Below the pieces are notes generated by a model. The model did no database searches. It worked only from the letters and a program-made list of their open reading frames with translations, and was not told the origin of the DNA. Of a stretch of 64,000 nucleotides of DNA, positions 1-18,544 are shown piece by piece. The DNA comes from Buttiauxella noackiae ATCC 51607 (lineage in GTDB: Bacteria > Pseudomonadota > Gammaproteobacteria > Enterobacterales > Enterobacteriaceae), in assembly GCF_001654865.1 (NCBI RefSeq), contig NZ_LXEO01000007.1, positions 1 through 64,000 of the forward strand, read 5' to 3'. Within the stretch, counting starts at the first letter, position 1. Each line of letters begins with the position of its first letter. A program made the translations under genes and the position numbers.

Positions 1-647
1 ATATCTCTTGTTTTTTTGGTTAATTTTTTTCCAGTATCTGTATAAATGACACCTAAAGGTTTTATCGTTAAGCGTTGGTCTCTTGAAAGCTTATTTACTA
101 TGGATAGTAAATTACTGGTTCCGAGTACTGAGTATTGATCTATCTTCATTGGCATTATGTAGTGCGTTGATGCCATGATGGATGCTTCTGTATACATTGA
201 AATAGTCGGCGGGCAATCAATGAAAATATAATCATATATATCTTTAAGTTTTTGATCCTCTATAAAGTTCCTAACTCTAATTAATCTAGTATTATCTACA
301 GTATTATGCTCAAACATGATATTTATATCGCCGGGTATAATATCCAAGTTTGGCTGAACATTATAAATAACATCTTCTTTTGTTAATACATGATCCTCCT
401 CATAAATAGATTCATTAACCTCAAATAATTTTTTTATTGTTTTTCTTTCTTTAACAAGAGATAGGTATTCATCAATTTTATCGAGTTTCCCCATAAAAGA
501 CTGAGTAGCATTGAACTGAGGATCAATATCTATGATGAGTACTTTTTTACCTTTGTAACTGGCTAAATAATCGCCAGTACTAATGCACAGAGTAGTCTTT
601 CCAACTCCCCCTTTCATATTTATAAAGCTTATAACAGGTGCTGTCAT
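1..647 (-). CDS. ParA-family partition ATPase, cut by window edge
   Basis: This is a ParA/Soj-type P-loop ATPase, the kind that segregates plasmids, phage-plasmids and some integrative elements. The frame opens at ATG 647 behind GGGGGT and stays open to base 1, so the C-terminus is outside the window. The deviant Walker A, KGGVGKTT, is at residues 12-19; a DIDPQ motif is at about 40-44; and a FIDCPP Walker B-like motif lies further on. No ParB partner is visible; it could be downstream, off the window. The stretch is much more AT-rich than the rest of the element, which suggests separate acquisition. Family assignment is firm; a role in partition is inferred. Confidence 0.88.
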   Translation of the reverse strand, partial: MTAPVISFINMKGGVGKTTLCISTGDYLASYKGKKVLIIDIDPQFNATQSFMGKLDKIDEYLSLVKERKTIKKLFEVNESIYEEDHVLTKEDVIYNVQPNLDIIPGDINIMFEHNTVDNTRLIRVRNFIEDQKLKDIYDYIFIDCPPTISMYTEASIMASTHYIMPMKIDQYSVLGTSNLLSIVNKLSRDQRLTIKPLGVIYTDTGKKLTKKTRD

Positions 648-1047
648 AGATACCCCCAAAAGACCGTGCGCTTATCTTACAGATACAAAATAAATTTACA
701 CTACTGTTTTTTCATACATAGCTCTATAGCGGGTTTACTTTATGGGGAATGGATATATATGAATTTATTGCGAGTGTCGGAAACTCTGGATTACGCTACG
801 GCTTGGCAATTCTATTTAGCTATCACCAGCATAGCCCTCTAACGCCATCGAATGCGCGGATATGGATTGATAAATCACTAACTCATTGATCTATTTAACC
901 ATCCTCACTTTCGATGAGTGATAACCGCTCGTTTAGACGCAATTCCTGCACTGGCTGGCTATTCAGCAACAGGGTAAATATCAGTTGCTCTGTTCGTAAC
1001 CCTCTGTTTAACCATAATTCTAGTGTTAGGTACGATTCACAGTGGAA
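648..1047. other. AT-rich intergenic stretch upstream of parA
   Basis: About 400 bases without a convincing gene. The parA promoter should lie at the left end. A 27-codon frame (759-842, plus strand) has no clear ribosome binding site, and I do not call it. No copy of the argU 3' end is visible here, so this is not the far attachment site. Confidence 0.4.
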
Positions 1048-1233
1048 CTATCTCAATCGCTGCGGCTTCTTCCACTGGTAATCCGGGCTGGTCATCATGC
1101 TGCGAAACCTGGCGCGATGCGCAATGCCGCTCTGTATTGAACGGCGTATCTCCCGCTGGTCTGCCAGGGTGAGTTGGCGGCCTTCATGCTCCAGCTTGGC
1201 AATGGTGAGTAATTCTATCTCGCTTTGCGTCAT
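1048..1233 (-). CDS. Small hypothetical protein
   Basis: A 61-residue, charged, probably helical protein starting MTQSEIELL. An upstream in-frame ATG at 1272 would add 13 residues but has no Shine-Dalgarno sequence. The ATG at 1233 follows a purine-rich GAGCGAGA. The composition (many E, R, Q and a helical pattern) looks like real coding sequence, unlike the overlapping frame on the other strand. I do not recognise the family. It lies alone between parA and small plus-strand genes. Confidence 0.45.
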   Translation of the reverse strand: MTQSEIELLTIAKLEHEGRQLTLADQREIRRSIQSGIAHRARFRSMMTSPDYQWKKPQRLR

Positions 1234-1371
1234 GGTTTCTCGCTCTATCTGTGCTGGCAGCATTGTATTCACAACCGAAGATCATCAACTGGTCAGATGT
1301 GAATTATTCTATTCATAACGTACAAAGGGGCATAATGTTATTATATAACAATAAGCCATCCGGGAGCATTT

Positions 1372-1626
1372 ATGAAAGTGCATAGCATTTTGGCTGTATC
1401 GCTGGCAGCAACATCGTTCAGCTGCCTGGCATTTAAATCACAACCCAGCATCCCCGAAACTTCGCCAACTTCAAGCATCAGCACCCTTGAGAGCAAAATT
1501 CTGGGTAGCTTCTACAGCAAGCACGGCATGAACCCACAGAGCACCGTCCTTGGCATGTGTAACGCATCACCTGTACCAGGTTGTTCTTGCCCATTCTGCA
1601 TGATGCTACGCAGTCATGTAAGCTAA
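1372..1626 (+). CDS. Small secreted Cys-containing protein, unknown
   Basis: An 84-residue protein with a GGGAG ribosome binding site before ATG 1372. Residues 1-20 form a signal peptide (lysine, hydrophobic core, then Ala/Ser/Cys residues). The mature part is rich in Ser, Thr and Pro and ends in a Cys cluster, MCNASPVPGCSCPFC, near the C-terminus. The C before LAF is not in a good lipobox, so a lipoprotein is unlikely. It is followed 36 bp later by a two-TM protein with its own strong site, so the two may form a pair. Family unknown; export is inferred from sequence. Confidence 0.6.
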   Translation: MKVHSILAVSLAATSFSCLAFKSQPSIPETSPTSSISTLESKILGSFYSKHGMNPQSTVLGMCNASPVPGCSCPFCMMLRSHVS

Positions 1627-1662
1627 CTTCATTACGCAACTATTTTGCAAGGGAGTGACTTC

Positions 1663-1860
1663 ATGAGATTACCTAAGCGCCGTATTATCTGGATTGTTGT
1701 TGCCATTGCTGGCGTGGTTTCACTTAGCGTGGCCGACTCAACCATTGATGCCAATAACATCGTTCACGACTCTGCTCTGATGCCGGTTGGTGCCATTCTG
1801 TTGCTGGTAGCATTTTTAATCTTCGTCTTTGACGCTATCAAAACGGCAATACGCGGTTAA
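1663..1860 (+). CDS. Small two-TM membrane protein, unknown
   Basis: A 65-residue protein starting MRLPKRR at ATG 1663, eight bases after GGGAG; an earlier in-frame start at 1645 has no ribosome site. The Lys/Arg-rich N-terminus is followed by two hydrophobic segments (about residues 9-25 and 40-58), so it should be an inner-membrane hairpin. It sits directly downstream of the secreted 84-residue protein in the same orientation. Small two-TM proteins beside secreted peptides are sometimes immunity or export partners, but nothing in the sequence proves that here. Confidence 0.6.
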   Translation: MRLPKRRIIWIVVAIAGVVSLSVADSTIDANNIVHDSALMPVGAILLLVAFLIFVFDAIKTAIRG

Positions 1861-1999
1861 CACTGCGCGGTTTTTATTTCTCGTTTTGTGAAATTTGAGC
1901 GTTAGGAATCGTGAGATGGTAAAAAGATTTGCAAAACTTATTTAACATGGAGCTAAATACGCGGATTCAGTGTTCAAACCTTCGTATGGAAATTAATAA

Positions 2000-2521: not shown

Positions 2522-3109
2522 TCAGATAAGGCTTACCTTTCTCTTGAGAGCACCTGTTATGCGCTCTACAACCGGACTGAATGCCCGCCAGTAGGCAAGC
2601 TCATACTGCATAAGCCTGGCTAACCTCCTGTTAAAGGTTTCCCAGCGCATCCCCTTTGGCTTGGGGAATAAATTCGGGCGGTTAAACAGGTTATTGGTGA
2701 GATCGTTATTTCCCCATATGGCGTATCGCTGGCGACGTATGCTCATGCGCATTCGGTCTAGCTTGTCTCCGCTCTGGCTTTTGTAGTGGAGTTTCCAGCA
2801 CTCCCGGCATGCGATATCTTTTCGCCCGATATACAGCTTCGCTACCCGCTTCACACAGTGCGGGCAAGCATACCATTGCCGAATGCCATAGCCAGCTTGT
2901 GTGATGGTGGTTCTGATTACCCGCGTAACACCGTTGATTGTCATGGCATAACCATCTGCGTGGCGGGATGTGTACAGAACCCCACTCTCAGTTGTGCAGG
3001 AAATCTGCATACCGGGTGAGAGCTCAGTCAGGCGGCGACGCATATTAACCAGGAATGGCAGACCGATACGGGGCAAATCCGTTGTGTAGCTGCGCGTTCT
3101 GTCTCTCAT
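2522..3109 (-). CDS. Zinc-ribbon hypothetical protein of phage type
   Basis: A 195-residue basic protein. A CPHC...CREC pair (about residues 82-85 and 101-104) forms a likely zinc ribbon, followed by an Arg/Tyr-rich helical C-terminal half. Its closest analogues in my memory are uncharacterised proteins of enterobacterial prophages and islands. It lies downstream of the tape-measure gene on the same strand, 244 bp away, and so is probably transcribed separately. Nucleic-acid binding is likely from the zinc ribbon and basic charge but not shown. Confidence 0.65.
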   Translation of the reverse strand: MRDRTRSYTTDLPRIGLPFLVNMRRRLTELSPGMQISCTTESGVLYTSRHADGYAMTINGVTRVIRTTITQAGYGIRQWYACPHCVKRVAKLYIGRKDIACRECWKLHYKSQSGDKLDRMRMSIRRQRYAIWGNNDLTNNLFNRPNLFPKPKGMRWETFNRRLARLMQYELAYWRAFSPVVERITGALKRKVSLI

Positions 3110-3353: not shown

Positions 3354-6329
3354 TTACTCCAGCGCCTTGCGGGGAGCCTGATGGTTGGTTGATATCGCCC
3401 GGCTAAGAGGGCCTCCACTGTTTATGTCAGCAATAGCAAATTCAAGCACATCTCTTCCATCCGGGCCTTTGGACATCTGATAATCCTGAACCTGAGCTGA
3501 TGAGGCGTAATTGTGAATGATAACTGTAGGGCTGCCGCCACCTTGTACTTGAGCGGGTCTCTCTGATGAAGAACCTGATGATTTAAGGTAATTGCTGCCG
3601 GTACTGGCTTTAGGTATGCCCTGCGACAAGTCTTTATTGCTGATTACTCGCCCATTGTTACCGGGCAGCATGTAGTTCTTGCCGCCAGACTGGAACACTT
3701 CTGGCAAGTTGCCCTCACCAAACTCATACATGCCACCAGCAGTTACTGGGCCACCATTCTTACGCTTGCCAGCCAAAGCAGCACCAATGGCAAAGGCGGC
3801 GACCATTCCGGCAATACCAGCTACAGCGGCGCCACCAAACGTTGCGATAGATGCGGCAGCGGCAGCAGGCGCCCATGCAGTTGCGGTGGCAGCGGCTGAT
3901 TGCTGTGATGAACTGGATGCCATCTTGTCAGCTAACATCGCCATTGCTGCGTTTTTAAGGTACTGAATGCCTACTTCGACAAGCGACTGTATGACGCTAT
4001 TGAGAATGGCATTACCGAGGTTCTCTGTTGCTTCCGCTGCTGTCTGGGTGCCATTGATATAGCCCGTGAGCGAACTGGCCGCCTGACTTGAGAAGCCATC
4101 AATAGCCGATGCCATCAACTCGTTTACAGTGCTCTGGTTGCGGTAAATCTCCCATTGCGCATCTGTACGCGCTTTCTCATATTGAGTGTTGGCCGCATTC
4201 CGAAGTGCCAGGGCTTGCTGTTCGGTCAGAGTTTTGTTGGTTTCAAACTGCTGGATTAGTGCAAGCTTCTGGGCATTTTCGTTAGCTAGTTGTTGAACCG
4301 GGTCAACGCTGCCCACAGCTTGTTGCTGCGGAGTGACAACCTGACCGGCTTTTATTTTGGCAAGGTTAGCCTGATGCTCCTGCTCGATGCGCTCAGATTC
4401 TCGGCTGTACTGCTCTTGAGAGAGAAGTAATTGCCCGTTGGCGTCAGTCTGTCCCTTCAGGCTTTCAAGCGCCGCTTTCTGTGAGTTGTAATCGGCATTC
4501 TCCTTCAGCTCAGGTACCGCATTTTGAGCTTTAAGGGCTGCTGCTTTATCCCAGGCTGCGGCTGCGTCACGCTCGACCTGAGCAACCATCTGAGGTGTTG
4601 GGTTTGCCAGCTTTTGAGTTGCTGCCAGTATCGCCTGTTCGCGTGAGAGGTCGCTGGTTGAATCAGCGGTGAGCTGTGCTTTCTGGCGGTATTCTTCCAG
4701 AACTCTGGCGTTACGTTCAGCCTGAGACGCTTCCTGGCTTGTAGCTTTGTTGTTTTCTTTTGTGGATTTGGCGTTCTGCTCGTTTTGTCGGTAAATCGCC
4801 AGTTTAACGTTGTAATAATCCCGGAAAGCCTGAGTGCCTTCTTTTAGCCCCTGCGTTTCAGCATCTCGCCACGCCTGAGCCTTATTCCTTGCATCACCAG
4901 TTTGTTTAGCGATAAACAATTCCTGCTGGGCAATTTTAATGGCTTTATCCTGGCTGGATGTAAGTTCATCGGTGATATTGCGAAGAGCCCTGAGACGATC
5001 CTCTGCCGAGGAGGCGGATTTAATTATTGTCCCAATTTTATCTGCATATTCTTGAGCTACAGCGGCTCCTTTTGAGTGCCCCTTGCTAACATCCACCAAA
5101 GTGGCAAGGAGATCGTTCAACTTATCCTTTGATGGCGTTTTGGCAATATCAGAAAGCTGTTTTGCGAATTCATATGCTTTCTGGTCTGATATATCAAACT
5201 TGCTTGCCAGCGCACCAACTGTGGCAATCATGGACTGCATGGTTGTTTGACCATCTCGCCCTGATGCGGCCGCCTGCTTCATTGCCTCGCCCCAGTCATT
5301 TGTGGTGATGCTAAGCGTAGACAGATAATCATTGAAAAGCTTAACGCTCGCATAGCTGCCACCAAGTGACGACACAAGCGAATCACCAAAGGTCACAAAG
5401 TCCTTTGATGCCTTTTGTACTTCAGTGGATACCTTCGCCATCGCAGACTGTAGTTCAGCCTCGGCTAGTTGAATCATCAATGAAGCAGCACGAATATTAT
5501 TTTTCGCAAGGGCCGCATATTCATTGGAGAGAGCACTTACGCCATTCTGAGAAATAGTGATTACTTTATCCGCTGTTTCTATGGAGTCTTTCAATGCGTC
5601 CATGGCGCTCTTGCCGCCGTTAAGCGATGTAATCAGCGTGCCAGCAACAACCGTACTTAATGCGATAATAGAGCCAATCACTGCGCCGCCTGGCCCGAAC
5701 GCACCGGCTAATTGCGACCCCTGCTGCGAGAAGGCTACAAGAGCGGATTGCCCACCTTGAACCTGAACAATGAAGTCCTGCACCTGGTAGCCAGCTTGTT
5801 GCATGCTGTTCTTCCAGTTAGTGTGGCCTTTTACCCCGGCGTCGGTGCTGTTCTTCATATCAAACAGTCGGCCTGTCAGCTCACCAATATGCTTTTTCTC
5901 TTCTTCAGAAGCAGTAGATCCGGCGCGGAGTTGGGCGGCAAGAATGGCAGCGCTACGGGCGGAGCCTTCTTGTGCTTCTTCAAGGATTGCCAGTTGATTA
6001 CCCAATCCCTCAATTATCGCCTCAGCACGACTGAATTCTGCACCTGCGCCGCCCGTGTTAGTCCTGGCTTCTAACATCGCTTTAGCAATAGCATTCACAC
6101 TTGTATTCAGGGTTCTAAGTGAGCCGTCCATCGACTTTGAGTAGCCAGCCATCGTATCAAATGATTTGCCAGTATCAGCCACAGTTTTCTCAAGACCACC
6201 AAGAGCCTTGTCGCTTGGTTTTACACTTGTGGCAATCGAATCAAGCGCGGCCTTGGCTTCCTTTGCTCCCGAGAGTAATGGCTCAACATCTGCGGAAATC
6301 TCAATGTAAATACCACCTAAACTTTCCAT
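3354..6329 (-). CDS. Phage tail tape-measure protein
   Basis: About 991 residues, a length-determining tail protein of siphophage (lambda gpH-like) type. The N-terminal half is Ala/Ser/Gln-rich with long helical, coiled-coil stretches; an AQAERNARVLEEYRQKAQLT-type region near the middle is typical. At about residues 800-870 there is an Ala/Gly-rich hydrophobic segment, and the tail is Ser/Gly-rich. A GTG at 6335 is possible, but ATG 6329 has better spacing from GAGG. It follows the 108-residue gene by a few bases. No other tail, capsid or terminase gene is visible in the window, so the gene is an orphan here. Confidence 0.85.
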   Translation of the reverse strand: MESLGGIYIEISADVEPLLSGAKEAKAALDSIATSVKPSDKALGGLEKTVADTGKSFDTMAGYSKSMDGSLRTLNTSVNAIAKAMLEARTNTGGAGAEFSRAEAIIEGLGNQLAILEEAQEGSARSAAILAAQLRAGSTASEEEKKHIGELTGRLFDMKNSTDAGVKGHTNWKNSMQQAGYQVQDFIVQVQGGQSALVAFSQQGSQLAGAFGPGGAVIGSIIALSTVVAGTLITSLNGGKSAMDALKDSIETADKVITISQNGVSALSNEYAALAKNNIRAASLMIQLAEAELQSAMAKVSTEVQKASKDFVTFGDSLVSSLGGSYASVKLFNDYLSTLSITTNDWGEAMKQAAASGRDGQTTMQSMIATVGALASKFDISDQKAYEFAKQLSDIAKTPSKDKLNDLLATLVDVSKGHSKGAAVAQEYADKIGTIIKSASSAEDRLRALRNITDELTSSQDKAIKIAQQELFIAKQTGDARNKAQAWRDAETQGLKEGTQAFRDYYNVKLAIYRQNEQNAKSTKENNKATSQEASQAERNARVLEEYRQKAQLTADSTSDLSREQAILAATQKLANPTPQMVAQVERDAAAAWDKAAALKAQNAVPELKENADYNSQKAALESLKGQTDANGQLLLSQEQYSRESERIEQEHQANLAKIKAGQVVTPQQQAVGSVDPVQQLANENAQKLALIQQFETNKTLTEQQALALRNAANTQYEKARTDAQWEIYRNQSTVNELMASAIDGFSSQAASSLTGYINGTQTAAEATENLGNAILNSVIQSLVEVGIQYLKNAAMAMLADKMASSSSQQSAAATATAWAPAAAAASIATFGGAAVAGIAGMVAAFAIGAALAGKRKNGGPVTAGGMYEFGEGNLPEVFQSGGKNYMLPGNNGRVISNKDLSQGIPKASTGSNYLKSSGSSSERPAQVQGGGSPTVIIHNYASSAQVQDYQMSKGPDGRDVLEFAIADINSGGPLSRAISTNHQAPRKALE

Positions 6330-6336
6330 GCTCACC

Positions 6337-6663
6337 TCAGTGGATTATCGGATTTGCTGTTTTGAGAAGAGACATTTCTGTCATTTTGGTTATCGCGCTG
6401 GTGGCATGGGCGGTAAGGCTATACTCAGGGCCATCCAGAATAATCAGGTTCGCCAGTATCCAGAACGCATCGCGCTCACATGTGCTTCCGGTCTTAACCT
6501 GAGATAACAGCAATGCGTTGCCCAGCAAGCCAGCAGCCAGTTGAGAAACCTCTACAACCCCGCTTTTATCTTCAACTGTAACAACATCACTCCCTGTCTT
6601 TCGACGCAGATCACGCACATACGTTTCAGCAATGGACTCAGCCAGACATTGCAATTGCTCCAT
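6337..6663 (-). CDS. Hypothetical phage protein upstream of tape measure
   Basis: A 108-residue, Leu/Ala-rich, mostly helical protein. Its ATG (6663) overlaps the stop of the 57-residue gene by one base (TAATG), and its stop is seven bases from the tape-measure start, so the three genes are translationally linked. In siphophages this slot usually holds tail-assembly chaperones (lambda G/GT), but I see no clear similarity or frameshift site, so this is only a positional idea. Confidence 0.6.
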   Translation of the reverse strand: MEQLQCLAESIAETYVRDLRRKTGSDVVTVEDKSGVVEVSQLAAGLLGNALLLSQVKTGSTCERDAFWILANLIILDGPEYSLTAHATSAITKMTEMSLLKTANPIIH

Positions 6664-6836
6664 TAAGCCACCTCAACTTGTTGCAAGGCTTTGTCCACCA
6701 GCCCACGCACAATGGCATTAAGTGTTGGCGCGACATTGAGCGGTGATTCAGCTCGATAACCATCCTGAATCCGGCGCACGGACTCCATTTGTTCTTTAGT
6801 TAAAAGGACTGGTTTAAAGTTTGGATTCTGGGCCAT
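6663..6836 (-). CDS. Small hypothetical protein, first gene of tape-measure operon
   Basis: A 57-residue protein starting MAQNPNFKPVLLT, with an excellent AGGAG site seven bases before ATG 6836. A short beta-like start (FKPVLL) followed by two predicted helices resembles a ribbon-helix-helix fold, which would fit a small DNA-binding regulator, but the match is by eye only. The TAA overlaps the ATG of the next gene. The clean ribosome site and coupling make it a likely real gene despite its size. Confidence 0.65.
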   Translation of the reverse strand: MAQNPNFKPVLLTKEQMESVRRIQDGYRAESPLNVAPTLNAIVRGLVDKALQQVEVA

Positions 6837-9362: not shown

Positions 9363-11819
9363 TTACTCATCATCATCGCTGGAAATTGCGCATCCGAAAG
9401 CACGCGGTAAGAACTCCTCCGCAAGCTCGGTGAGGCTGACATTGGTTTGCGCTCGTCCGTTAATCTGTCTCGTCAGGTATGCGGCACGGTACTCCTTGGC
9501 GGCTGACTTAATAGCGCGTGAGAATTTATTGACCGACAGCGGTTTGCCCAGGCCGTGATACTCAATGAACGCAAGGTATAGGTGATAAAGATATGCCCTT
9601 GGCTCTGGCTGGCCTGACCATGTTCCACCGCCCATCATCAGACCATTCGGTTTATCCATGAAAAAAAGCGCTGCGCACATATCAATGACCGGATCAGTGC
9701 CGCGCTTCACGTCCAGTGCTTCCAGTGAGTCACGCTGCTCGATGAGTAATAATTTTGCTTTGTTCTGGTCGGCAAATGCGTCCAGCAGGTGACGAATAAT
9801 TACCGGAATTTCACGGCGGATCTTCGCTGTTAAATCTGGGTCTTTCCCTGCATCAGATACCGGGTTGTTGAACGGGAATATCACACGACGGCGGGCAATA
9901 CCTCCGTTACGCTCGGTAAATGTCATTGGTTCGTTGTTGGTTGCCAGCACAACAGCGTTAAGCACGGTCGTAAATTGTTTCTCATACTTACCGTCTATCT
10001 CTACCGGGTCGCCGCCTGTAATAGCCTTGATGCCTGCGCCTTCACCAACATAGCGGGTCTGATCTGGCATCAGTATCAGGCTTTTGCCAACGAACTGCGC
10101 ACGTCCACGGGCAAGATCCAGTGTGGACATACTTCCACTGGCTGTGTTGTGCTCTCCTGCAAGAGCAGTGGCAATGGCACTGAAGACTGATTTCCCGCTA
10201 CCGCCTTCACCTGTTACTTCAATGAATAACTGCCAGTCGTGACGCTTTGCCAGCACCATAAATAATGCTGCTTTAATGCGTTCGGCCTTCTGATCGCCGC
10301 CCTCGGTGGCATGTGTCAGCCAGCGGGTAAAGTTCGGGGCGTGAGTGCTGAGGTTCTCGCCGGGTGCGGGGGAGGTATAGGTTATCCCGTTGTGGTTCAT
10401 CAGCCAGTTTTCCGGGCTATGTTTGGTGAATGTCTGCGTAGACAGATCATAAACACCATTTTCAAAACCTATCAGGTCACAACGCTGCTCACCAAGAATC
10501 GGAAGCTGTAGCTTCATGGTTGCCACTACGGACTTAATCCCCTTCTCGGTGTAATGCGCTTCGTGCTCTTCAAAAATAGTTACCATGACGCGTTCAAGCT
10601 CGCTGTCATTCAGTTTTGACCATACGCCAGAATCGTAGCAGTACACCGATGCGCTATCTGGATTTACCGCCAACTTCCCCCAGCGACTGGAGAGCAGTTT
10701 TGCTTTCTGACTTGCAGCCATCTGAGCAATATCGGCGGAGCTGGTGACACGGGGCGCTTTACCACCCTCAATGGCCTGTAGCACTGGTTTCACATACTTC
10801 CCCTGCGGTTGGTACATTGATTCATTAAACGCCTGTGTAGCGGCTTCCAGCCCGTTTTGCTGGTGGTAGTCGTTCCAGTCGGCTTTATGGTCTGTCGGTG
10901 GTACTGATACCCAGCCAGCCACGGATAAAGCGGCTTTCTCTGCGGCTTCTTTCCCGAGGTTGGTGCCTCCAGTTTCGGAGTCACCTCCCTGCTGGTCGTT
11001 ATCGGCGATGAGGACAATTTTGTCCCCTGGGTATTTCTTTCGCATCAGCTCCGCAACCGGTAACAGGTTGCCCGCGTCGATTGCTGCTACTGCCAGCGCG
11101 TCAGGGAACATCAGGTGAACGGATAAGACTGTCGCCAGCCCTTCACCAATCACAATGGTCTGCGGCGTTTCTGGTGCGTTTACGGCATGGTATGCCCCAC
11201 GCTTTGCCGAACCCGCTAACAGGCGTTTAACCCCATCGGCGGTAATCGTCTGCGCGGCGGTGACTGTGCCGGACTCAGCTACCAGCCCCAGCAGCAATGA
11301 ACCATCAGGCAGGATCGGATAATGGAACCCGTTCAGCCCTTTTGATTTCAGGTATTCGCTTTCACCTGGTGCGGCCTGTGCCGCCAGTGTCTGGTATTTA
11401 TCGGCAAAGGTTTTGCGGCGTTGCTCCGTCTCCGTTGCTGTCTGCTGCTGTCGCACCTGTTCGCGTTGCTGGCGTTCAGTGTCCAGTTGGTTTCTTCTCT
11501 GGCTGGCTGCTTCTTTGTCGGGTTCGGCTGCCCGGTAATCAATACCCAGCACATCAGCCACCATCTTCGCGGCCTCTGTGGTGTCGCAGTTATTCACCTT
11601 CTTGATCAGGTCTAGTCCGTCACCTGCGCCGCATACGTTGCAGATGTGAGCGCCACGCCCGTTATCATCAAAGCGAAAGCGGTCATCACCCCCGCATGCC
11701 GGGCATGGGGCATGATGGCGAGGTGAGTCAGGAACATCGATATTCAGGCCAGCCAGGACAGAATCCCACTGATTAGCGGCGGCGCTGGTCACTTCGCGGA
11801 TGAGGTCGATATTACGCAT
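9363..11819 (-). CDS. P4 alpha-like primase-helicase
   Basis: An 818-residue replication protein. A zinc-binding primase domain has C39, C42, C60 and C63; a TOPRIM-like domain follows (GEG at 225-227, IADND at 271-275). The C-terminal superfamily 3 helicase has a Walker A GEGGSGKS at 537-544, a MPD Walker B-like site near 584, a sensor ATNNE near 626-630 and RRR near 643-645. An earlier in-frame start at 11909 lies inside the preceding gene; ATG 11819 follows AAGGGG. It overlaps that gene by eight bases. It should open and prime the nearby iteron origin, as in phage P4 and related satellites. Confidence 0.92.
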   Translation of the reverse strand: MRNIDLIREVTSAAANQWDSVLAGLNIDVPDSPRHHAPCPACGGDDRFRFDDNGRGAHICNVCGAGDGLDLIKKVNNCDTTEAAKMVADVLGIDYRAAEPDKEAASQRRNQLDTERQQREQVRQQQTATETEQRRKTFADKYQTLAAQAAPGESEYLKSKGLNGFHYPILPDGSLLLGLVAESGTVTAAQTITADGVKRLLAGSAKRGAYHAVNAPETPQTIVIGEGLATVLSVHLMFPDALAVAAIDAGNLLPVAELMRKKYPGDKIVLIADNDQQGGDSETGGTNLGKEAAEKAALSVAGWVSVPPTDHKADWNDYHQQNGLEAATQAFNESMYQPQGKYVKPVLQAIEGGKAPRVTSSADIAQMAASQKAKLLSSRWGKLAVNPDSASVYCYDSGVWSKLNDSELERVMVTIFEEHEAHYTEKGIKSVVATMKLQLPILGEQRCDLIGFENGVYDLSTQTFTKHSPENWLMNHNGITYTSPAPGENLSTHAPNFTRWLTHATEGGDQKAERIKAALFMVLAKRHDWQLFIEVTGEGGSGKSVFSAIATALAGEHNTASGSMSTLDLARGRAQFVGKSLILMPDQTRYVGEGAGIKAITGGDPVEIDGKYEKQFTTVLNAVVLATNNEPMTFTERNGGIARRRVIFPFNNPVSDAGKDPDLTAKIRREIPVIIRHLLDAFADQNKAKLLLIEQRDSLEALDVKRGTDPVIDMCAALFFMDKPNGLMMGGGTWSGQPEPRAYLYHLYLAFIEYHGLGKPLSVNKFSRAIKSAAKEYRAAYLTRQINGRAQTNVSLTELAEEFLPRAFGCAISSDDDE

Positions 11820-12162
11820 GGAATGCCCCTTCGTTATCCGCAAGACTCGCGCCCATATCACTGACCATGCTTTGCCAGATATCCCAGCCTTTTTCCGTAA
11901 CTTCGGCACCGTTCACGCATTTACTCAGCAAGGTAATGCATGAGTTTTCCCACAGAGGACCAATTCCTTTTAGTGGTTCAAGTAAGTAACTATCTACCAA
12001 TGGGCGTATGCCCTGAATGCCGTTAACAATTTCAACGCGTACCGGTTCACCGCCAGCATCCAGCATGAAATGCTCGCCATTGCTGGTGGTGGTAATGCGG
12101 TTATACAGCGCGGCGGCGTACTGGTTAGCCAGCGCATTAAGACGAAAGTTTTTAGTGATCAT
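11812..12162 (-). CDS. Hypothetical protein of replication operon
   Basis: A 116-residue protein starting MITKNFRLNALANQYAAAL. ATG 12162 follows GGGAACAA, and its end overlaps the primase-helicase start by eight bases. It has a helical N-terminal part, a beta-like middle (EPVRVEIVNGIQG) and no recognisable motif. Its tight coupling suggests it is made together with the replicase. Confidence 0.6.
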   Translation of the reverse strand: MITKNFRLNALANQYAAALYNRITTTSNGEHFMLDAGGEPVRVEIVNGIQGIRPLVDSYLLEPLKGIGPLWENSCITLLSKCVNGAEVTEKGWDIWQSMVSDMGASLADNEGAFHA

Positions 12163-12171: not shown

Positions 12172-12786
12172 TTAGTGCGCTGCTGGTGCGGCTGGAATCC
12201 CTTCGGCATTCAGCATCTTGATAAAATCGTCATGGAGCATCGTGAGGCTTTCACGCCCCCACTGAGACAAACGCAGTGCGTCAGTGTCTGGATTAAGCTC
12301 AACCATGCCCTGATAAAGCTGAATAGCCCGCTCCATGCCTGTTACCGCCCCGTACTTCTCAAGAGCAATACCCTCGATATGGATCGCTAATGAACAGCGC
12401 TCTGTGATGGGATAAATCGACATGCCGCCATGTTCCCCAGCATAGATAACGCCATAATCTGTGCCGCCTTCTTCATTGGCCACAGGAACAACACCGTTCT
12501 TATCCTGCTGCTCATGGATAAACAGACAGGCCACCAGCCAGCGCCAGATAAGCGCCATTTGCTCAGCGGAAGGATTAAACCAGCCCATTAGTTCGCCTTC
12601 CTGAACCTCGGCAATGATGCGCATTCCATCAGGTAGCGCGTAATCGAAATACCCTTCATCAAGCTGGCGAATAGCGGACGTATACCCGATAAGTTTGCTA
12701 TCAAGCCGGATACCATCCGGCGTAGCTTCAATGTGATTTAAAACCTGAGCAGAGTTTGCTTTCGGAAACTTCAATAGATTGCTCAT
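12172..12786 (-). CDS. Hypothetical protein of replication operon
   Basis: A 204-residue acidic, soluble protein with no signal peptide or motif I recognise. The GAGG site lies before ATG 12786, and the start overlaps the preceding gene by four bases. A Trp-rich stretch (MGWFNPSAEQMALIWRWL) and a C-terminal helix are the main features. It lies in the chain of overlapping genes that ends in the primase-helicase. Confidence 0.6.
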   Translation of the reverse strand: MSNLLKFPKANSAQVLNHIEATPDGIRLDSKLIGYTSAIRQLDEGYFDYALPDGMRIIAEVQEGELMGWFNPSAEQMALIWRWLVACLFIHEQQDKNGVVPVANEEGGTDYGVIYAGEHGGMSIYPITERCSLAIHIEGIALEKYGAVTGMERAIQLYQGMVELNPDTDALRLSQWGRESLTMLHDDFIKMLNAEGIPAAPAAH

Positions 12787-13291: not shown

Positions 13292-13494
13292 ACGGCTACC
13301 TCCGGCAGTTGATTGCCTTCCAGCAGACAATGCAGATCACGAATGGAGATATCGAAAAGACCAACGAGGGCAACCAGGTATTTATCGCGGCTGTCTGAAT
13401 TGTTTTCGAGAACGTCACGCATTAATTCAGCCAGTGAGATGAGCTGCCCGGTGCGTTCCGTTGGGTTGACTGGCAAATCGTAGGTTCTACGCAT
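13288..13494 (-). CDS. Small hypothetical protein
   Basis: A 68-residue protein starting MRRTYDLPVNPTERTGQLIS at ATG 13494, preceded by GGAGGTGTGC. The frame is open to 13620, but upstream sequence belongs to the Icd-like gene. It overlaps that gene by eight bases and the next by four. A helical part, ISLAELMRDVLENN, then LVGLFDISIRDL. Family unknown. Confidence 0.55.
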   Translation of the reverse strand: MRRTYDLPVNPTERTGQLISLAELMRDVLENNSDSRDKYLVALVGLFDISIRDLHCLLEGNQLPEVAV

Positions 13495-13705
13495 TGCACA
13501 CCTCCAGCACAGGCAGACGCGCGGCCAGTGACAGAATGAAGTGCGGGGCAAGAGTGCGGCGAGCTTCTCGCTCGGTTTCGGCTTCAACTGAGAGACAGCA
13601 AGGTTTGGCTTTTTTGTCATGGCGATTGATAGCGAGAAAACGCCAGGTGAATTTGTTCGGGCTGAGTGATGCCCGCCCCATATGGGGTGTGGTACGATTT
13701 GACAT
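13487..13705 (-). CDS. Icd/Ash-like host-inhibitor family protein
   Basis: A 72-residue protein starting MSNRTTPHMG. The core FTWRFLAINRHDKKAKPC, then SVEAETEREARR and LAPHFILSLAARLPV, matches the short Icd-like/Ash proteins of P4-type and P1-type elements, described as inhibitors of host cell division. ATG 13705 follows AACGAGGTAGC. The frame stays open far upstream to 14500, but that part is antisense to another gene and I treat it as fortuitous. It heads the coupled operon leading to the primase-helicase. The inhibitory role is inferred from the family name only. Confidence 0.7.
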   Translation of the reverse strand: MSNRTTPHMGRASLSPNKFTWRFLAINRHDKKAKPCCLSVEAETEREARRTLAPHFILSLAARLPVLEVCNA

Positions 13706-13815
13706 AGCTACCTCGTTACTACTGATAACGGTGGTGGTCAGAAGCCCGGAAGGTGTTAGCGCACCTCTGGGCTTCGCCGTTTTATGTACTTCCTGTGCCT
13801 TACCTGTGGATAAGG

Positions 13816-13895
13816 TGAACACCACCAATGTATAACCTAGTGAACACCACTTCAAGTATTTTATTATCAATTTTGCTGTGTATACTGAACACCAC
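13816..13895. promoter_or_regulatory. Three TGAACACCAC repeats, operator-like
   Basis: TGAACACCAC occurs three times, at 13816-13825, 13841-13850 and 13886-13895, all in one orientation. The first is embedded in GGTGAACACC. The third touches a TATACT (13881-13886) that could be the -10 of the rightward gene at 13917. The site lies between two divergent genes, so it may control both. The P4 alpha iteron as I remember it also begins GGTGAACA, so replicase binding is a second possibility. Confidence 0.6.
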
Positions 13896-13916
13896 CTAAA
13901 GCAAGAGGTTTCAGCA

Positions 13917-14105
13917 ATGGCAACAGGTAGGAAGAACAATCGTTCTATACAGTTTTCTGTACGACTCCCTCTGGATGATTTGGAAGAAATAGAAAAACTG
14001 AAAGAAGAAGGTGAAAGCACTGCCGGCTTTCTGATTACAGCAGCAAAAAGCGAAATAAAACGCCGCCAGCGCAAACAAGCCAAAGCAGAAACGACAGAAG
14101 ATTGA
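13917..14105 (+). CDS. YlcI/YnfO-family small regulator-like protein
   Basis: A 62-residue protein starting MATGRKNNRSIQFSVRLP. The SIQFSVRLPLDDLEEIEKL strand-helix and the following helix FLITAAKSEIKRRQRK look like a ribbon-helix-helix protein and match the YlcI/YnfO family of cryptic prophages. ATG 13917 has AGAGG before it; a longer frame from 13878 would cross the promoter. It is divergent from the replication operon and followed by a good terminator. DNA binding is inferred from fold. Confidence 0.75.
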   Translation: MATGRKNNRSIQFSVRLPLDDLEEIEKLKEEGESTAGFLITAAKSEIKRRQRKQAKAETTED

Positions 14106-14124
14106 TCCACATAATCAACTGACC

Positions 14125-14156
14125 AAAGGGGGTGTGTTAAATAATCCCCCTTTTTT
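14125..14156 (+). terminator. Rho-independent terminator
   Basis: AAAGGGGG pairs with CCCCCTTT, followed by TTTTTT, directly after the YlcI/YnfO-type gene. Confidence 0.85.
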
Positions 14157-14500
14157 ATGGACTGACAAAATTCACCTTCGCTGCTTATCAACAAGCCCGA
14201 TAATTTCAGGTCTGCGCCTCGCGTAGTGACCCCAATAAAACCTTCAACGCCACCAGCAACAGCATTCTGCATGTCAGGTTTTGACAGGTAATCAGCCAAA
14301 CTTTCGGCTGATTTACCGTTAGGATTTGTTAGGAACTGAGCGAAATATTTCGCTGAGTCCTGGACCATAACATTTGATAACAGGCCAGCCAGGGAGAAGC
14401 CCTTATTCTGGACGGCGGCATTAAGCATGGTTAGCCCACCGCCAAACCCTGCGGTGATACCCTGAATTGGAGTTAGGTTATTCTCATCAGCATTAAGCAT
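14150..14500 (-). pseudogene. Coding-like fragment after the antirepressor gene
   Basis: The frame from ATG 14500 reads about 110 plausible residues (MLNADENNLTPIQGITAGFG and on through GKSAESLADYLSKPDM to LLISSEGEF), Gly/Ala-rich like a virion protein. It then runs into the terminator and the antisense of the YlcI/YnfO gene and continues open to 13487. No stop separates the halves, so the 337-residue frame looks like a chance fusion of a gene remnant with the Icd-like gene. ATG 14500 overlaps the antirepressor stop by eight bases. Identity of the fragment unknown. Confidence 0.35.
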
Positions 14501-15335
14501 GATTAACCCCTAGGCGCTTTGCCAACCAACGTTGTGAAAGGCGTATCAACTCCGCTTTGCGCGGGTGGTAGTCCATACCCATGTCTATCAGCGTGATGTT
14601 GGTGCTTTCCAGATAGGTCAGGTGCTCAAGCTGCTCGGCTGTCATGCTGTCGCGTGGCTCGTCTTCAATACCGTTAACCTGCGCCCACTGCTTAGCCGTC
14701 AGGCCACCCAGCACAATGCGGGCGATCATGTTGCTTTCAGTGGAGTAGTGGCGAGGCAATGTCTGTTTACCCAGTTCGGCGCGAGCAGCATCCAGTGCGG
14801 CACACATTGGCTTAAACAGGTTTGCGGCACCAATACGGGCTTTAAGCTGACGGCGGTACTGCGCGGCAATCTCCGGTACGCTGCGGCTTAACGCTTCCTC
14901 GCACTGGATGAAGTAACGACGAACGGCGCGGCCTTGTTCATTGCGTTCAACCATCGCCAGCTCTTTAGCCATACTCAGTGAAATACCATGATCTTTACTG
15001 CGGCGGTCACCACCACGCTTCGTTTTCCAGTTCTCGCTACACTGGTTAAATTCCGTACTTTGGTTCCCCGGATTTGGGGAATCAAAAATCACGTAATCAA
15101 CGCCTTGTTCAAATTCATACTCTTTAATGCGCTCGGAAAGCCACGTTGAATAATCACGCCCTACGCCCATTGCTTTATGTAACGCTTTCGCGCTCGCAAT
15201 ATTGGTTTCACGCCCGCCAATTTGACCGGAAATAACAGGAACAATGGCAGCAAAGTCATTATTGCTAATACCGCCCAGGCTGGTGGCGGGCTGAGGGGAG
15301 GCCTCAGAAGTTAATCTGCGTTTTTCGAGTTTCAT
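14493..15335 (-). CDS. AntA/AntB-type phage antirepressor
   Basis: A 280-residue protein. The N-terminal region about residues 40-100 (SAKALHKAMGVGRDYSTWLS, ERIKEYEFEQGVDY) is the AntA/AntB domain, and the middle carries SMAKELAMVERNEQGRAVR, the usual next segment. The C-terminal half contains basic helices. Antirepressors bind and inactivate phage repressors and so tie induction to another signal. ATG 15335 follows GGAGCCTGAAT. It lies 12 bp after a 154-residue gene in the AlpA operon. Assignment is by motif; the target repressor is unknown. Confidence 0.88.
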   Translation of the reverse strand: MKLEKRRLTSEASPQPATSLGGISNNDFAAIVPVISGQIGGRETNIASAKALHKAMGVGRDYSTWLSERIKEYEFEQGVDYVIFDSPNPGNQSTEFNQCSENWKTKRGGDRRSKDHGISLSMAKELAMVERNEQGRAVRRYFIQCEEALSRSVPEIAAQYRRQLKARIGAANLFKPMCAALDAARAELGKQTLPRHYSTESNMIARIVLGGLTAKQWAQVNGIEDEPRDSMTAEQLEHLTYLESTNITLIDMGMDYHPRKAELIRLSQRWLAKRLGVNHA

Positions 15336-15347
15336 ATTCAGGCTCCG

Positions 15348-15812
15348 TTATGCGGCGTTCAGGCTATCCGGGAACTGGTTAATTAGGTGTTGTATTTCAT
15401 CTTCTGAAATTGGTTGCGCTCCACGTTCAATACGCCAGCGGTTAATAAGCGTAACAATGCGACGTGCTGCTATACGATCCGGTAGGCGATATCGGGTGAA
15501 GTGGGACGAGTAGCCATGACGAGACTGATAGCGCTCACTCTCTCCGATAATTTCAACACCGTGCTGATTGCGGAATTTTGATACATCGCTATGTAGGCAG
15601 GTGGTATAAAACTTCGCACCAGAGCCAATCATGTCGAAGTCATCAACAGAGCGTGCGTTAGTGTCCAGCGCATTGACGCCATTGGGCTGCTTCAGCAGGA
15701 CGGTAGCGAAGGATTCGTTTTTACTGACTGGCTTGATAACCGTGACAGGCGTAATATCAGCAAGGCAAATATCTGACAATTCCGCCTGATTTTCTGGGCG
15801 GTCTTTTTTCAT
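15348..15812 (-). CDS. Hypothetical protein downstream of alpA
   Basis: A 154-residue protein whose ATG overlaps the AlpA stop by one base (TAATG). An acidic, extended N-terminus is followed by a basic region with YSSHFTRYRLPDRIAARRIV and a C-terminal helix. A helix-turn-helix is possible in the last third, but I see no certain motif. It forms a three-gene unit with alpA and the antirepressor, so a role in the element's regulation is likely. Confidence 0.6.
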   Translation of the reverse strand: MKKDRPENQAELSDICLADITPVTVIKPVSKNESFATVLLKQPNGVNALDTNARSVDDFDMIGSGAKFYTTCLHSDVSKFRNQHGVEIIGESERYQSRHGYSSHFTRYRLPDRIAARRIVTLINRWRIERGAQPISEDEIQHLINQFPDSLNAA

Positions 15813-16009
15813 TATGCCACCTCGCCGCGAGATTCAGCGATGCGCTGATTAATCCATTCATCCACTTCACTTTCAATGAATGCGATTGAGCGTGAGCCAA
15901 TTTTAATCGGCTTAGGGAAGCGACCCTGGGATATTAGACGGTAAATCCATGACTTACCGTTTCCAGTGCGGTGCATGACTTCCGGCATTTTCATAAGACG
16001 TTTAGACAT
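15812..16009 (-). CDS. AlpA-family transcriptional regulator
   Basis: A 65-residue protein with the AlpA pattern: MKMPEVMHRTGNGKSWIYRL is the helix-turn-helix and FPKPIKIGSRSIAFIESEVDEWI is the typical wing and C-terminal helix. AlpA-like proteins (P4 Vis and relatives) activate or repress the integrase/excision genes. ATG 16009 has AGGAG 12 bases before it. The upstream region carries three GGAAGT-type repeats. It starts the operon with the 154-residue protein and the antirepressor. Confidence 0.93.
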   Translation of the reverse strand: MSKRLMKMPEVMHRTGNGKSWIYRLISQGRFPKPIKIGSRSIAFIESEVDEWINQRIAESRGEVA

Positions 16010-16256: not shown

Positions 16257-17024
16257 TTAAAATTCAGAAGGGTTGCTCTGCTCAGCGCGCTCTGCTGCAA
16301 GGTTTACGATTTGCTCATTACCTACTAGCCTACTGGCTCGAAATGCTAACGCCTCGCTGATAAGATCGCGAACCCGCCTATCATCAACGGACATTCCTGT
16401 TCCGTAATCGCTTATAGCGGCGAATATATCCCTAACCAAAGCAGACTTATTTATTCCCGTAGCCCTACTGTGTTTACCACTGATTTTACCTATGGCAATG
16501 GCCTGCCCTGCGATGATGTCCAGCAACGCATCCTTTCCTCTAAGCGAAGAGTCAATATCAATGTACATCGTTGATTGAGCTGGCTTCAGTTCATTTTCGT
16601 TTATATTGACCTCAGCGAGAATCAGTGCTTTTAACTGAGGTTTGAAACAGTCTGCAATTTCCTCCCGCTCAAAGCCAAGCCGAACGAAGCTATCCGAAAC
16701 CCAATATTCGCCTTCCTCCCCTTCTGCTGGATGAGTATATGGCAGACAGTTGTTTTTCTTTAAATTGAGAAGAAGAGGCGTTAACTCTTGGAGATCAAAC
16801 TCCTTGCAATCCTCGGGATGGAACGGCTGAATCTCTGAAAAATGATTAAAAATCACAAGTGGCGGCAAGCGACCTGCGCCATTCATTTGGTTAAATTTCA
16901 TCAACAACCACTCGGCGACAGTTGAAAATGTCGCTCTTGAACCGCCTTGCACAAGACTGGCAAGCTCGGCAAGGCTAATGAACTTGCCATAAGCCTCTTC
17001 AAGTTCGGCTTCAATATCAAACAC
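16257..17024 (-). CDS. Hypothetical 255-residue protein next to integrase
   Basis: A soluble, mildly acidic 255-residue protein starting at GTG 17024 behind GGAGGGG. The first 60 residues are helical; the middle is Pro/Glu-rich (LPYTHPAEGEEGEYWVSDSF); the C-terminal half contains a segment around HSRATGINKSALVRDIFAAI that reads like a DNA-binding or oligomerisation helix. I recognise no domain. It stands alone between integrase and alpA with its own promoter gap. In P4-like elements this kind of slot often holds accessory cargo, including defence genes; nothing in the sequence proves that here. Confidence 0.6.
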   Translation of the reverse strand: MFDIEAELEEAYGKFISLAELASLVQGGSRATFSTVAEWLLMKFNQMNGAGRLPPLVIFNHFSEIQPFHPEDCKEFDLQELTPLLLNLKKNNCLPYTHPAEGEEGEYWVSDSFVRLGFEREEIADCFKPQLKALILAEVNINENELKPAQSTMYIDIDSSLRGKDALLDIIAGQAIAIGKISGKHSRATGINKSALVRDIFAAISDYGTGMSVDDRRVRDLISEALAFRASRLVGNEQIVNLAAERAEQSNPSEF

Positions 17025-17116
17025 GGTACCCCTCCGTGATTTCCCATATTGGAAGCTATGCCAGCCGTTGGGTACGGTTTTCGGGAGCTACCCTAGACAT
17101 AGCCTTATTCTTTATC

Positions 17117-17133
17117 TGTCTACTGAAGTCTAC
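17117..17133. repeat. Integrase arm-like site downstream of int
   Basis: On the minus strand this reads GTAGACTTCAGTAGACA and matches the doublet beside argU (18512 onward) at 15 of 17 positions. Two GTAGAC cores are spaced one helical turn apart. Confidence 0.5.
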
Positions 17134-17164
17134 CCCGGTATTTTTTTACTGTCTATCCATCCAG

Positions 17165-18379
17165 TCATGCTAATTTACCAAATGTGCCATGAACCACATT
17201 ACCGCCTCGTTCCAGGCTATCCATATAGTCGGCATACCACTGAAGCATCTCCCGGCGGCCATCCAGATACTGGGCATGGTTGTACGTGCCGCGAATGGAG
17301 TTCTTATCAACGTGAGCGAGCTGCGTTTCAATCCAAGCAGTGTTGTAACCCTGCTCATGAAGAATGGTACTCATTGTATGGCGGAAGCCGTGACCTGTTG
17401 CTCTACCGTGATAACCAATACGTTTTATTACTTGGTTAATACTGGCTTCACTCATTGGCTTAGTACTGTCATTTCGACCAGGGAATACAAATTTAAAGCG
17501 GCCTGTCATTTCCTGTAATTGCTGTAGTAACTCTAGGACTTGCTCAGAAAGAGGAACGAGGTGAGGGCGGCGCATTTTCATTCTTTCTTTTGGTACTTCC
17601 CAAAGTCCTTTGTCTAAATCAAATTCCGCCCACTCTGCTGCGCGTAGCTCGATGGTGCGCACACCTGTCAGCATGAGTAACCGTGTTGCTATTTGAGTTA
17701 TGCGGCTGCCAGAGTATTTATCGAGGGATTGCAGAAATTCAGGGAACTCAGAAGCAACCAAATGTGGGTAGTGTTTGTGCTTCTGGATGGCGAGTGCGCC
17801 GGCTAACTCACTGGCGGGGTTATTCTCTGCTCGACCCGTAACAATGGCGTATCGAAATGTCTGGCTACATGCCTGGCGAATCTTGCGCATTTTGTCTAAG
17901 ACCCCGCGCTTCTCGAGTTTGCGTAAGGCTTCCAGAACTTCGAGTGGCTTAATATCGGTTACAGGGCGCTTGCCTATGAAGGGGAATATGTCTTTCTCAA
18001 AGGATTCCATCAGATCCTCAGAGTAACCCTTTGACCAGTTCGGATGCTTATAGGCATGCCATTCTCTGGCGAGAGCCTCGAAAGTGTTATCGATGCTTAT
18101 TTTCTTTGCCTGTTTTTCGGATTTCTTTTCTTGCCCGGGATCGCTGCCACCAGCTAATAGCCGTTTTGCTTCATCGCGTTTTGCCCTGGCTTCGGCAAGA
18201 GTAATTTCTGGATATACCCCCACGGCAAGTAACTTCTCTTTTCCTGCAACGCGGTATTTTAAACGCCAGTATTTTGCGCCGTTAGGATTCACCAGCAGGT
18301 ATAGACCGCCGCCATCAGAGAGCTTGTAAGGCTTTTCTTTACCTTTGGATGTGTCCACCTGGCGGGCGTTTAGTTTCAT
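17165..18379 (-). CDS. int: P4-type tyrosine integrase
   Basis: A 404-residue site-specific recombinase that inserts the element into argU. The N-terminal DUF4102-like arm-binding part contains YKLSDGGGLYLLVNPNGAKY; the core-binding domain follows; the catalytic residues are R of TGVRTIEL (about 241), HxxR in GHGFRH (about 330-333), H of QLAHVDKN (about 356) and Tyr of GTYNHAQYL (about 366). ATG 18379 starts MKLNARQV; an earlier ATG at 18394 adds five residues. The gene begins about 165 bp from the 3' end of argU, with arm-like repeats between, as usual for this family. Confidence 0.96.
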   Translation of the reverse strand: MKLNARQVDTSKGKEKPYKLSDGGGLYLLVNPNGAKYWRLKYRVAGKEKLLAVGVYPEITLAEARAKRDEAKRLLAGGSDPGQEKKSEKQAKKISIDNTFEALAREWHAYKHPNWSKGYSEDLMESFEKDIFPFIGKRPVTDIKPLEVLEALRKLEKRGVLDKMRKIRQACSQTFRYAIVTGRAENNPASELAGALAIQKHKHYPHLVASEFPEFLQSLDKYSGSRITQIATRLLMLTGVRTIELRAAEWAEFDLDKGLWEVPKERMKMRRPHLVPLSEQVLELLQQLQEMTGRFKFVFPGRNDSTKPMSEASINQVIKRIGYHGRATGHGFRHTMSTILHEQGYNTAWIETQLAHVDKNSIRGTYNHAQYLDGRREMLQWYADYMDSLERGGNVVHGTFGKLA

Positions 18380-18438
18380 TTGGGGGTATCTCATTTCATT
18401 GAACGGGAAGCTACCCCCAAATGTACCCCCACATGGTA

Positions 18439-18529
18439 GTAGATTTCAATAGATGCCAGTAGACGTTGAGATACAGAGATATGGCTATGTAGGCTGATTT
18501 ATTGGGGTTTTGTAGACTTAAGTAGACGG
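18439..18529. repeat. GTAGAC/GTAGAT arm-type repeats in attachment region
   Basis: GTAGAT at 18439 and GTAGAC at 18459, 18512 and 18522 lie in direct orientation between int and the tRNA. The last pair is spaced 10 bp, one helical turn. This is the pattern of arm-type integrase sites next to an att core that overlaps the tRNA 3' end. Confidence 0.6.
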
Positions 18530-18544
18530 CAGGAGAAGTGAAAA

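Follow-up and report, generated by a model that had tools for sequence, protein, structure and literature searches.

A satellite element beside tRNA-Arg(TCT) of Buttiauxella noackiae has a recurrent tape-measure gene module that may remodel helper phage tails

The DNA analysed here (the window) consists of 64,000 nucleotides of Buttiauxella noackiae ATCC 51607, being bases 1 to 64000 of contig C7 (NZ_LXEO01000007.1) of a draft assembly of 104 contigs. A phage satellite occupies window positions 1 to 18540, beside a tRNA-Arg gene (anticodon TCT, argU-type, 18545..18621, identified with ARAGORN) on its attachment-site side; this gene and all window features described below are on the minus strand unless stated otherwise. 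The original prediction placed the element at argU, and the integrase indeed adjoins the 3' end of this tRNA, the tRNA itself being located just beyond the interval that ends at 18540. When read from right to left, the gene order is tRNA-Arg, integrase, a 255-aa protein, AlpA, a conserved small protein, AntA/B, an Icd-like protein, small conserved genes, a P4-family primase, a single-stranded DNA-binding protein (SSB), PerC, g7377, g7005, g6664, c6337, the tail tape-measure protein (TMP), g2522, cargo and a cut ParA. The integrase, AlpA and the primase-replication gene are thereby present in the order of phage-inducible chromosomal islands (PICIs) of the EcCIMP1 type. Profile searches matched each of the predicted genes, namely an integrase (of the tyrosine type), AlpA, an antirepressor, an Icd-like gene, a primase-helicase, ssb and ParA. 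As had also been predicted, the far end is outside the window: position 1 is the first base of the contig, so the left end of the element is unread. Searches of the draft genome with a 29-mer (at most three mismatches) and a 17-mer (at most one mismatch) from the 3' end of the tRNA gave no second copy.

The TMP of a phage sets the length of its tail, at about 0.15 nm of tail per residue, and aids the entry of DNA into the cell. The TMP gene of the window (3354..6335) is intact and encodes 993 residues, of which residues 4-957 are covered by phrog_1538, 'tail length tape measure protein' (E 1e-156). It is preceded by c6337 (6337..6663), encoding a 108-aa satellite protein that matches phrog_19131, of unknown function, and by g6664 (6664..6836), the first gene of the unit, encoding a 57-aa protein that is ribbon-helix-helix-like by eye. 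The three genes are coupled, the end of g6664 meeting the start of c6337 and the end of c6337 that of the TMP gene. This is in agreement with the prediction of a complete TMP gene with two coupled small genes and, as also predicted, a Pfam scan of 21 of the 23 window genes (all except those at 1645-1860 and 12783-13064) gave no match to a capsid, portal, terminase or lysis family. The window TMP is matched by 522 phage records, in 107 of which the match spans 80% or more of the protein, and the first-listed phage match is Hafnia phage Pocitis76 (49% identity, 94% covered).

The unit recurs in related elements. In all 39 viral-contig loci that were retrieved with the c6337 profile, g6664, c6337 and the TMP gene are contiguous; these loci also have a tail-completion gene (36 loci, L107 having fragments only), an HGGxSTG gene (33), an Imm gene (25) and a recognised primase (26, some contigs being cut and some having another replication gene). 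Among 392 genomes of the family, c6337 is present in eight, each from a different genus and the genome of the window included. In the seven others the TMP gene is always downstream of c6337 (truncated in L065), primase genes surround the unit, and AlpA does so too where the fetched stretch reaches; five of these genomes have a recognisable g6664, and L069 and L070 have a 57-aa open reading frame (ORF), 17-19% identical, at its place. The backbone of AlpA, AntA/B, Icd, P4 primase, SSB and PerC is seen around the unit where the contig extends far enough. No match of c6337 was found in 50,697 phage records, and there is none in 23 phage or prophage stretches carrying a TMP gene, from which L039 was excluded because it is the satellite of genome G222. 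The AlphaFold2 model of c6337 has a mean pLDDT (predicted local distance difference test) of 90, and a fold search with this model gave no clear match. Judged from this distribution, the c6337-TMP pair is a family trait and not a stray remnant, because it recurs in 39/39 viral-contig loci and, outside the genus of the window, in seven genomes that each come from a different genus. In one of these genomes (L065, 11943-12575), beside the same tRNA-Arg as the window element, the TMP ORF is only 210 aa long, and this element seems to be decaying in its host.

Several of the related elements are closed or bounded. A plasmid search with c6337 gave five records: L028, three small circular Klebsiella records and one Klebsiella record with chromosomal genes (L053). 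L028, also found via g2522, is a 17,779-bp circular Raoultella record with the order AlpA, AntA/B, primase, SSB, g6664, c6337, TMP and g2522; reading-frame breaks are present, and its integrase spans the record start (the last bases were read by eye). The circular record L050 has an exact repeat after 18,204 bp, as from a circle that was read past its start. The L053 element lies between der and xseA, with 14-bp direct repeats at 2681 and 23740, about 21 kb apart.

Further virion genes were sought by running the structural proteins of Pocitis76 and of ST11-VIM1phi8.1 against 54 satellite stretches (the window included, L065 not). Apart from the tail-completion gene, only short fragments were matched in these stretches, and these queries found no tail-tube or tail-tip gene around the window TMP, on both sides of which the sequence is available. 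Likewise, no head, tail-tube or tail-tip match was found in the circular records L028 and L050 and in the bounded chromosomal element L053. The phage stretches are arranged differently: tail-tube and chaperone genes are found upstream of the TMP gene in 22 of 23 (L009 and L033 being apparently one contig), and 15 of these also have tail-tip matches downstream. The capsid family PF05065 was matched in none of 39 related records, but also in neither of the phage controls, so that this result excludes only that capsid type. The portal family PF04860 was not matched above the cut-off in any of the 39 records, two of which have 115-aa fragments below it. When 81 ORFs representing the unannotated ones were compared with PHROG, the families listed (25 of 122) included a portal match, and neither a capsid nor a large terminase was among them. 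Within the limits of these tests, no capsid, complete portal or large-terminase gene, and no other head, tail-tube or complete tail-tip gene, is recognised in the relatives. Small-terminase-like genes occur in L066 (phrog_1206), L067 (a DUF5681-like start, just below the cut-off) and L068 (by eye).

Pieces of phage genes are seen in some relatives. The 115-aa fragment is the C-terminal piece of a P2-like portal (L077, 6240-6587, phrog_68 E 3e-51; also in the record of L100) and, as it is found without other recognised head genes, it is perhaps a decoy or sensor. Only an N-terminal piece is present of a tail chaperone in L064 (2212-2394, a 61-aa match), of the tail-tip protein M in L086, L087 and L091 (about 13835-14018) and of the large terminase in L066 (16635-16730). 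The tip and large-terminase pieces are from genes that come next in phages. All these N-terminal pieces probably represent truncated inhibitors or the scars of gene capture.

The satellite TMPs are long, being 857-1202 aa in 48 rows, one of which is cut by its contig. The ratio of nonsynonymous to synonymous substitution rates (dN/dS) has a median of 0.168 and a maximum of 0.397 in 267 non-independent pairs among 41 satellite TMPs of near-equal length and 75-98.5% identity, which indicates that the TMP is under purifying selection. The history of its C-terminal part was analysed in a tree of 76 rows, 48 from satellites and 28 from phages (L048 gave no row), made with a quick method and with long branches flagged. 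In this tree the satellite/phage label changes seven times, and at least six of these changes are forced by supported branches; none of 500 label shuffles was as low as observed, which shows only that the labels cluster. These changes point to repeated exchange of TMP C-termini between satellites and phages. The first-listed phage match of a Klebsiella satellite TMP is Klebsiella phage Kp4856-1, an unannotated record (37% identity, 100% covered). For the window TMP, the closest C-terminal relative is prophage L035 (71% over 358 columns), which has capsid, tail-terminator, tail-tube, chaperone and tail-tip matches, and the best match of its first 410 residues, among the genomes searched, is prophage L036 (62%). 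The window TMP therefore looks like a mosaic.

The relatives have a second tail gene downstream of the TMP gene, encoding a 123-aa protein described as 'tail completion or Neck1' or HK97 gp10 (phrog_5, E 4.6e-12 to 1e-18 in three members). It is present in 41 of the 54 satellite stretches. Its phage relatives, one of which is annotated as HK97 gp10 family, are located just upstream of the tail terminator and before the tail tube, whereas in most viral-contig relatives the gene follows the TMP gene. Kp4856-1 matches this protein at 55%, and other phages at up to 59%. In phage 80-alpha, whose tail is borrowed by SaPI1, the tail-completion protein and the TMP have been resolved together inside the neck (PMC11661146).

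On the other side of the unit, genes for surface-type proteins are found. Of 48 loci, 45 have a gene for a lipoprotein, a signal-peptide or transmembrane protein or an Imm protein (PF14373) no more than 900 bp upstream of the unit; the same simple rules fit 2 of 317 single backbone ORFs, a count per ORF as compared with the count per locus for the 45 of 48. Two of the three misses are loci that start at the unit, and the third, L068, has a lipoprotein-like ORF just outside the rule. The window element is not among these 48 loci, and its unit is preceded by g7377 (7377..7709, 110 aa, phrog_13843 of unknown function, E 1.9e-44), which is an exclusion candidate, and g7005 (7005..7364, 119 aa, no family match, no relative in the satellite loci compared), both having a signal-peptide-like N-terminus by eye. 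Relatives of g7377 are found just upstream of the TMP gene in phage Kp4856-1 (54%) and in prophage L038 (60%). Exclusion by HK97 gp15 and by the TP-J34 lipoprotein Ltp is overcome by changes of tail or tape-measure genes (PMC10883804), and SNIPE, a nuclease with a role in defence, has been found to associate with TMPs as entry takes place (PMC13190303). Because of the upstream surface-type genes and these precedents, it may be guessed that the TMP unit also carries an exclusion function of its own.

The backbone of the window element resembles, in its gene content, the EcCIMP1 type of PICI. EcCIMP1 (OR778291), of E. coli MP1, excises and is transduced by helper phage Kapi1; it is described with an integrase, AlpA, an antirepressor, an Ash family protein, a primase and PerC, and is reported to be without phage-like structural genes (PMC11773190). 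Compared with this description, the window element has the same set, its Icd-like protein being of the Ash type, and it differs in the g6664-c6337-TMP unit and in its tRNA-Arg site, that of EcCIMP1 being tRNA-Thr. The E. coli satellites L007, L008 and L063 have AlpA, AntA/B, Icd, primase and SSB in common with the window element and have no c6337 or TMP gene; L063 also has a g6664-like ORF. L007 is located at tRNA-Thr between proA and yagU and has 10-bp repeats at 12177 and 24342, which are identical to the att core printed for EcCIMP1 (PMC11773190). The closing of L028 as a circle, the circular repeat of L050 and the transduction of EcCIMP1, which agrees with L007 in its described genes and att core, support the mobility of these elements. 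By classification Kapi1 is a Lederbergvirus, and the name tape measure is not given to any of the 71 features in its annotation; this one case, EcCIMP1 with Kapi1, is suggestive of a TMP-less sister using a short-tailed helper. The original prediction of a P4-like element fits the alpha-type primase-helicase and, more generally, the presence of AlpA and the integrase. It does not fit the remainder of the element as far as this was read: psu, delta and sid are named as components of P4-like satellites (PMC8628076), no Psu or Ogr/Delta Pfam match was obtained among the 21 window genes scanned, and the place of psu and delta, the integrase-AlpA gap, has one 255-aa ORF without a Pfam match.

The closest functional parallel is found in Vibrio PLEs (phage-inducible chromosomal island-like elements), which put their own TMP into the tails of phage ICP1, giving chimeric tails; deletion of tmp lowers transduction by 96-99.9% (PMC12987554, 2026). 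The PLEs encode the TMP, a tail-assembly chaperone (TAC) and, in some cases, a hub (BhuB) (PMC12987554). As in the PLEs, the window element has its own full-length TMP beside small genes and without the rest of a tail. The helper of the PLEs is lytic and has a contractile tail, whereas the TMP of the window element is of the siphovirus type, and the window's relatives have tail completion instead of the hub and no complete chaperone that is recognised. Capsid-forming PICIs (cf-PICIs) are also PICI-type satellites with a putative tmp (PMC12987554, Extended Data Fig. 10); they form their own capsids, and in the part of the element in the window no capsid, portal or packaging gene was seen among the genes scanned. 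The view in the original prediction that tail genes are not usual cargo of P4-like satellites needs correction in view of the functional TMPs of PLEs and the putative ones of cf-PICIs. The siphoviruses Pocitis76 and Kp4856-1 have a related TMP, and in these phages it is surrounded by capsid, tail-tube and tail-tip matches in phage order. In the open-licence literature searched, none of the listed titles and abstract openings reports a TMP for satellites of the EcCIMP1 type, and the carrier lineage, together with the coupling to tail-completion and exclusion-type genes, appears to be new there.

The TMP unit is a conserved, selected module, and as far as the element was read it has no recognised gene for a capsid, a packaging motor or a tail tube. 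It is probable, although by no means certain, that this is a PICI-type satellite that puts its own TMP into the tails of a helper phage, forming chimeric tails. By gene anatomy, the best reading is that the strategy would be the same as that of the PLEs, in another lineage. On induction of a long-tailed (siphovirus) helper, the satellite would excise, replicate with its own primase and be packaged in helper proteins. The satellite TMP would then replace the helper TMP as the core on which the helper tail tube and tip are assembled, and it would set the length of the chimeric tail and form the conduit for DNA entry into the next cell. The proteins of g6664 and c6337 probably regulate or assist the production or use of the TMP, and the secreted or membrane proteins encoded upstream probably exclude particles with a related TMP. 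Of the two readings originally proposed, a possible alteration of the helper's tail by the element is the better supported, in view of the recurrence of the c6337-TMP unit and of the purifying selection. A more extended picture, which is put forward tentatively, is that of an Enterobacterales PICI lineage, for which capsid formation is not known, that uses the siphovirus injection tube as a swappable module, with the TMP re-acquired from phages, run by c6337, mostly paired with tail completion and guarded by rotating surface exclusion proteins; such a satellite would set its own entry and shut the door behind it, and its TMP-less sisters could use short-tailed helpers.

Some observations weigh against chimeric tails. 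The comparison with resident phages that had been proposed found no other related TMP in the genome, and there is consequently no obvious resident helper of this type. The window element has no tail-completion gene at the place where it is seen in relatives, and no relative of this gene was found in the genome; for HK97 and JBD30 the place of tail completion inside the neck is called unclear by the authors (PMC11661146). A PLE-type tail-assembly chaperone beside the TMP was not recognised in the window element, and c6337 shows no sequence relation with four phage tail-assembly chaperones (hhalign probability 0.6%). A TMP that is made without its own chaperone could equally jam the tails of the helper.

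A rival explanation sees the TMP as a weapon and not as a building part: produced in the cell that the helper has infected, it would act as a decoy or dominant-negative ruler and upset the assembly of tails, be they those of the helper or of competing siphoviruses, to the protection of the host population or the advantage of the satellite. Interference with tail assembly is known from satellites and prophages, in the cases of Tai (PMC11364771) and Rta (PMC12987554), other tail and packaging genes are present in some relatives as short N-terminal pieces, and the TMP-less satellites L007, L008 and L063 exist on the same backbone. The satellite TMPs are, on the other hand, long and under purifying selection, the repeated exchange of their C-termini with phages fits a part that must match tail partners, and the TMPs of PLEs are required for satellite transfer (PMC12987554); we consider the weapon rather unlikely. 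It is a little less likely again that entry and exclusion are the main benefit of the module, the DNA-injection conduit being selected and not the tail length, an explanation that leaves room for chimeric tails and departs from the main reading in the target of selection. In that case, the TMP would give another route through the inner membrane or an escape from host systems directed at the TMP of the helper, and the lipoprotein or Imm protein would bar particles with a related TMP. This agrees with the gene for a membrane or secreted protein that immediately precedes the unit in 45 of 48 loci, with PF14373 Imm in 25 of the 39 viral-contig loci, with the g7377 relatives adjoining the TMP gene in a phage and a prophage, and with the association of SNIPE with TMPs during entry (PMC13190303); the upstream genes are nevertheless diverse, several being without a known family, and their exclusion role is a proposal from sequence. 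The second of the original readings, that the element is a remnant of a larger prophage, is disfavoured and very improbable, whether as a siphovirus remnant or as a TMP gene picked up by chance and drifting. The element is read only as far as the left end of the contig, the TMP of L065 is truncated, and the phage-gene pieces in L064, L066, L086, L087 and L091 look like capture scars. Yet the same order is found across eight genera and 39 viral-contig loci, with the unit at the same place in related satellites, the TMP is under purifying selection, the closed or bounded relatives L028, L050 and L053 are without head, tail-tube and tail-tip matches, and 22 of the 23 phage stretches keep tail-tube and chaperone genes upstream of the TMP, unlike the window element.

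Satellites are known to reshape the heads of phages. For tails, such reshaping was demonstrated in 2026 in a single Vibrio family, in a report that leaves the question of its benefit open (PMC12987554). If the satellite does make chimeric tails, the remodelling of tails is found again in a satellite lineage from Klebsiella and related bacteria, where it involves repeated exchange of the TMP with phages and comes with exclusion-type genes; the recurrent exchange and these genes together would then point to the possibility that DNA entry, rather than tail length alone, is under selection. Elements with and without the TMP on one backbone provide a natural comparison.

Concerning the other genes of the window element, the tyrosine integrase (17165..18394, 409 aa; PF00589, PF13356, PF22022) shares 89.6% identity with its L065 counterpart, which likewise lies beside tRNA-Arg(TCT). 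The 255-aa protein between the integrase and AlpA (16257..17024) has no Pfam or PADLOC match and no relative among the satellite loci compared. It is followed by the AlpA regulator (15812..16009, PF05930, E 2e-19), a conserved satellite protein adjoining AlpA (15348..15812), which is at the same place in several satellites and has no Pfam match, the AntA/AntB antirepressor (14493..15335, PF08346, E 2.6e-22) and the Icd-like (Ash-type) protein of 337 aa (13487..14500), in which NF033153 matches residues 284-331 above the cut-off. Upstream of the primase gene are a conserved satellite protein (12172..12786), with relatives in E. coli, Klebsiella and other satellites, and a conserved small one (11812..12162), with relatives in other satellites. 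The P4-family primase-helicase (9363..11909, 848 aa) has the domains Toprim_3, Zn_Ribbon_Prim, D5_N and Pox_D5; it matches phrog_2249 'DNA primase' (E 1.5e-141) and, just below its cut-off, TIGR01613 'P4 family', and is 78-79% identical to primases of E. coli satellites. The SSB (8172..8606, PF00436, E 4e-17) and the PerC-family regulator (7880..8182, PF06069, E 2.7e-25) complete this part. Beyond the TMP gene, g2522 (2522..3109, 195 aa, Cys-rich, no Pfam match) is downstream of the unit in many relatives, and relatives of it are also found in the TMP-less satellites L008 and L063. The cargo at the left end consists of two small ORFs on the opposite strand within 1372-1860, between ParA and g2522, of which that at 1372-1626 has no match in Pfam or PADLOC, and the ParA-type ATPase (3..659, PF13614, E 7e-37; phrog_164), cut by the contig end.

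Variations of the backbone are also seen among the viral-contig loci. Eight of them (L083, 1822-3936, and its relatives) have a common 704-aa protein at the usual place of the primase, presumably the sole primase match (phrog_1139) among the scanned representatives, so that replication may be another exchangeable module. In 10 of the 39 loci (L072-L110) the opposite strand carries a second AlpA-like gene, as is also reported for EcCIMP1 (PMC11773190). Upstream of the TMP unit in L106 (1244-9133), several large ORFs resemble, by size and eye, a type I restriction system.

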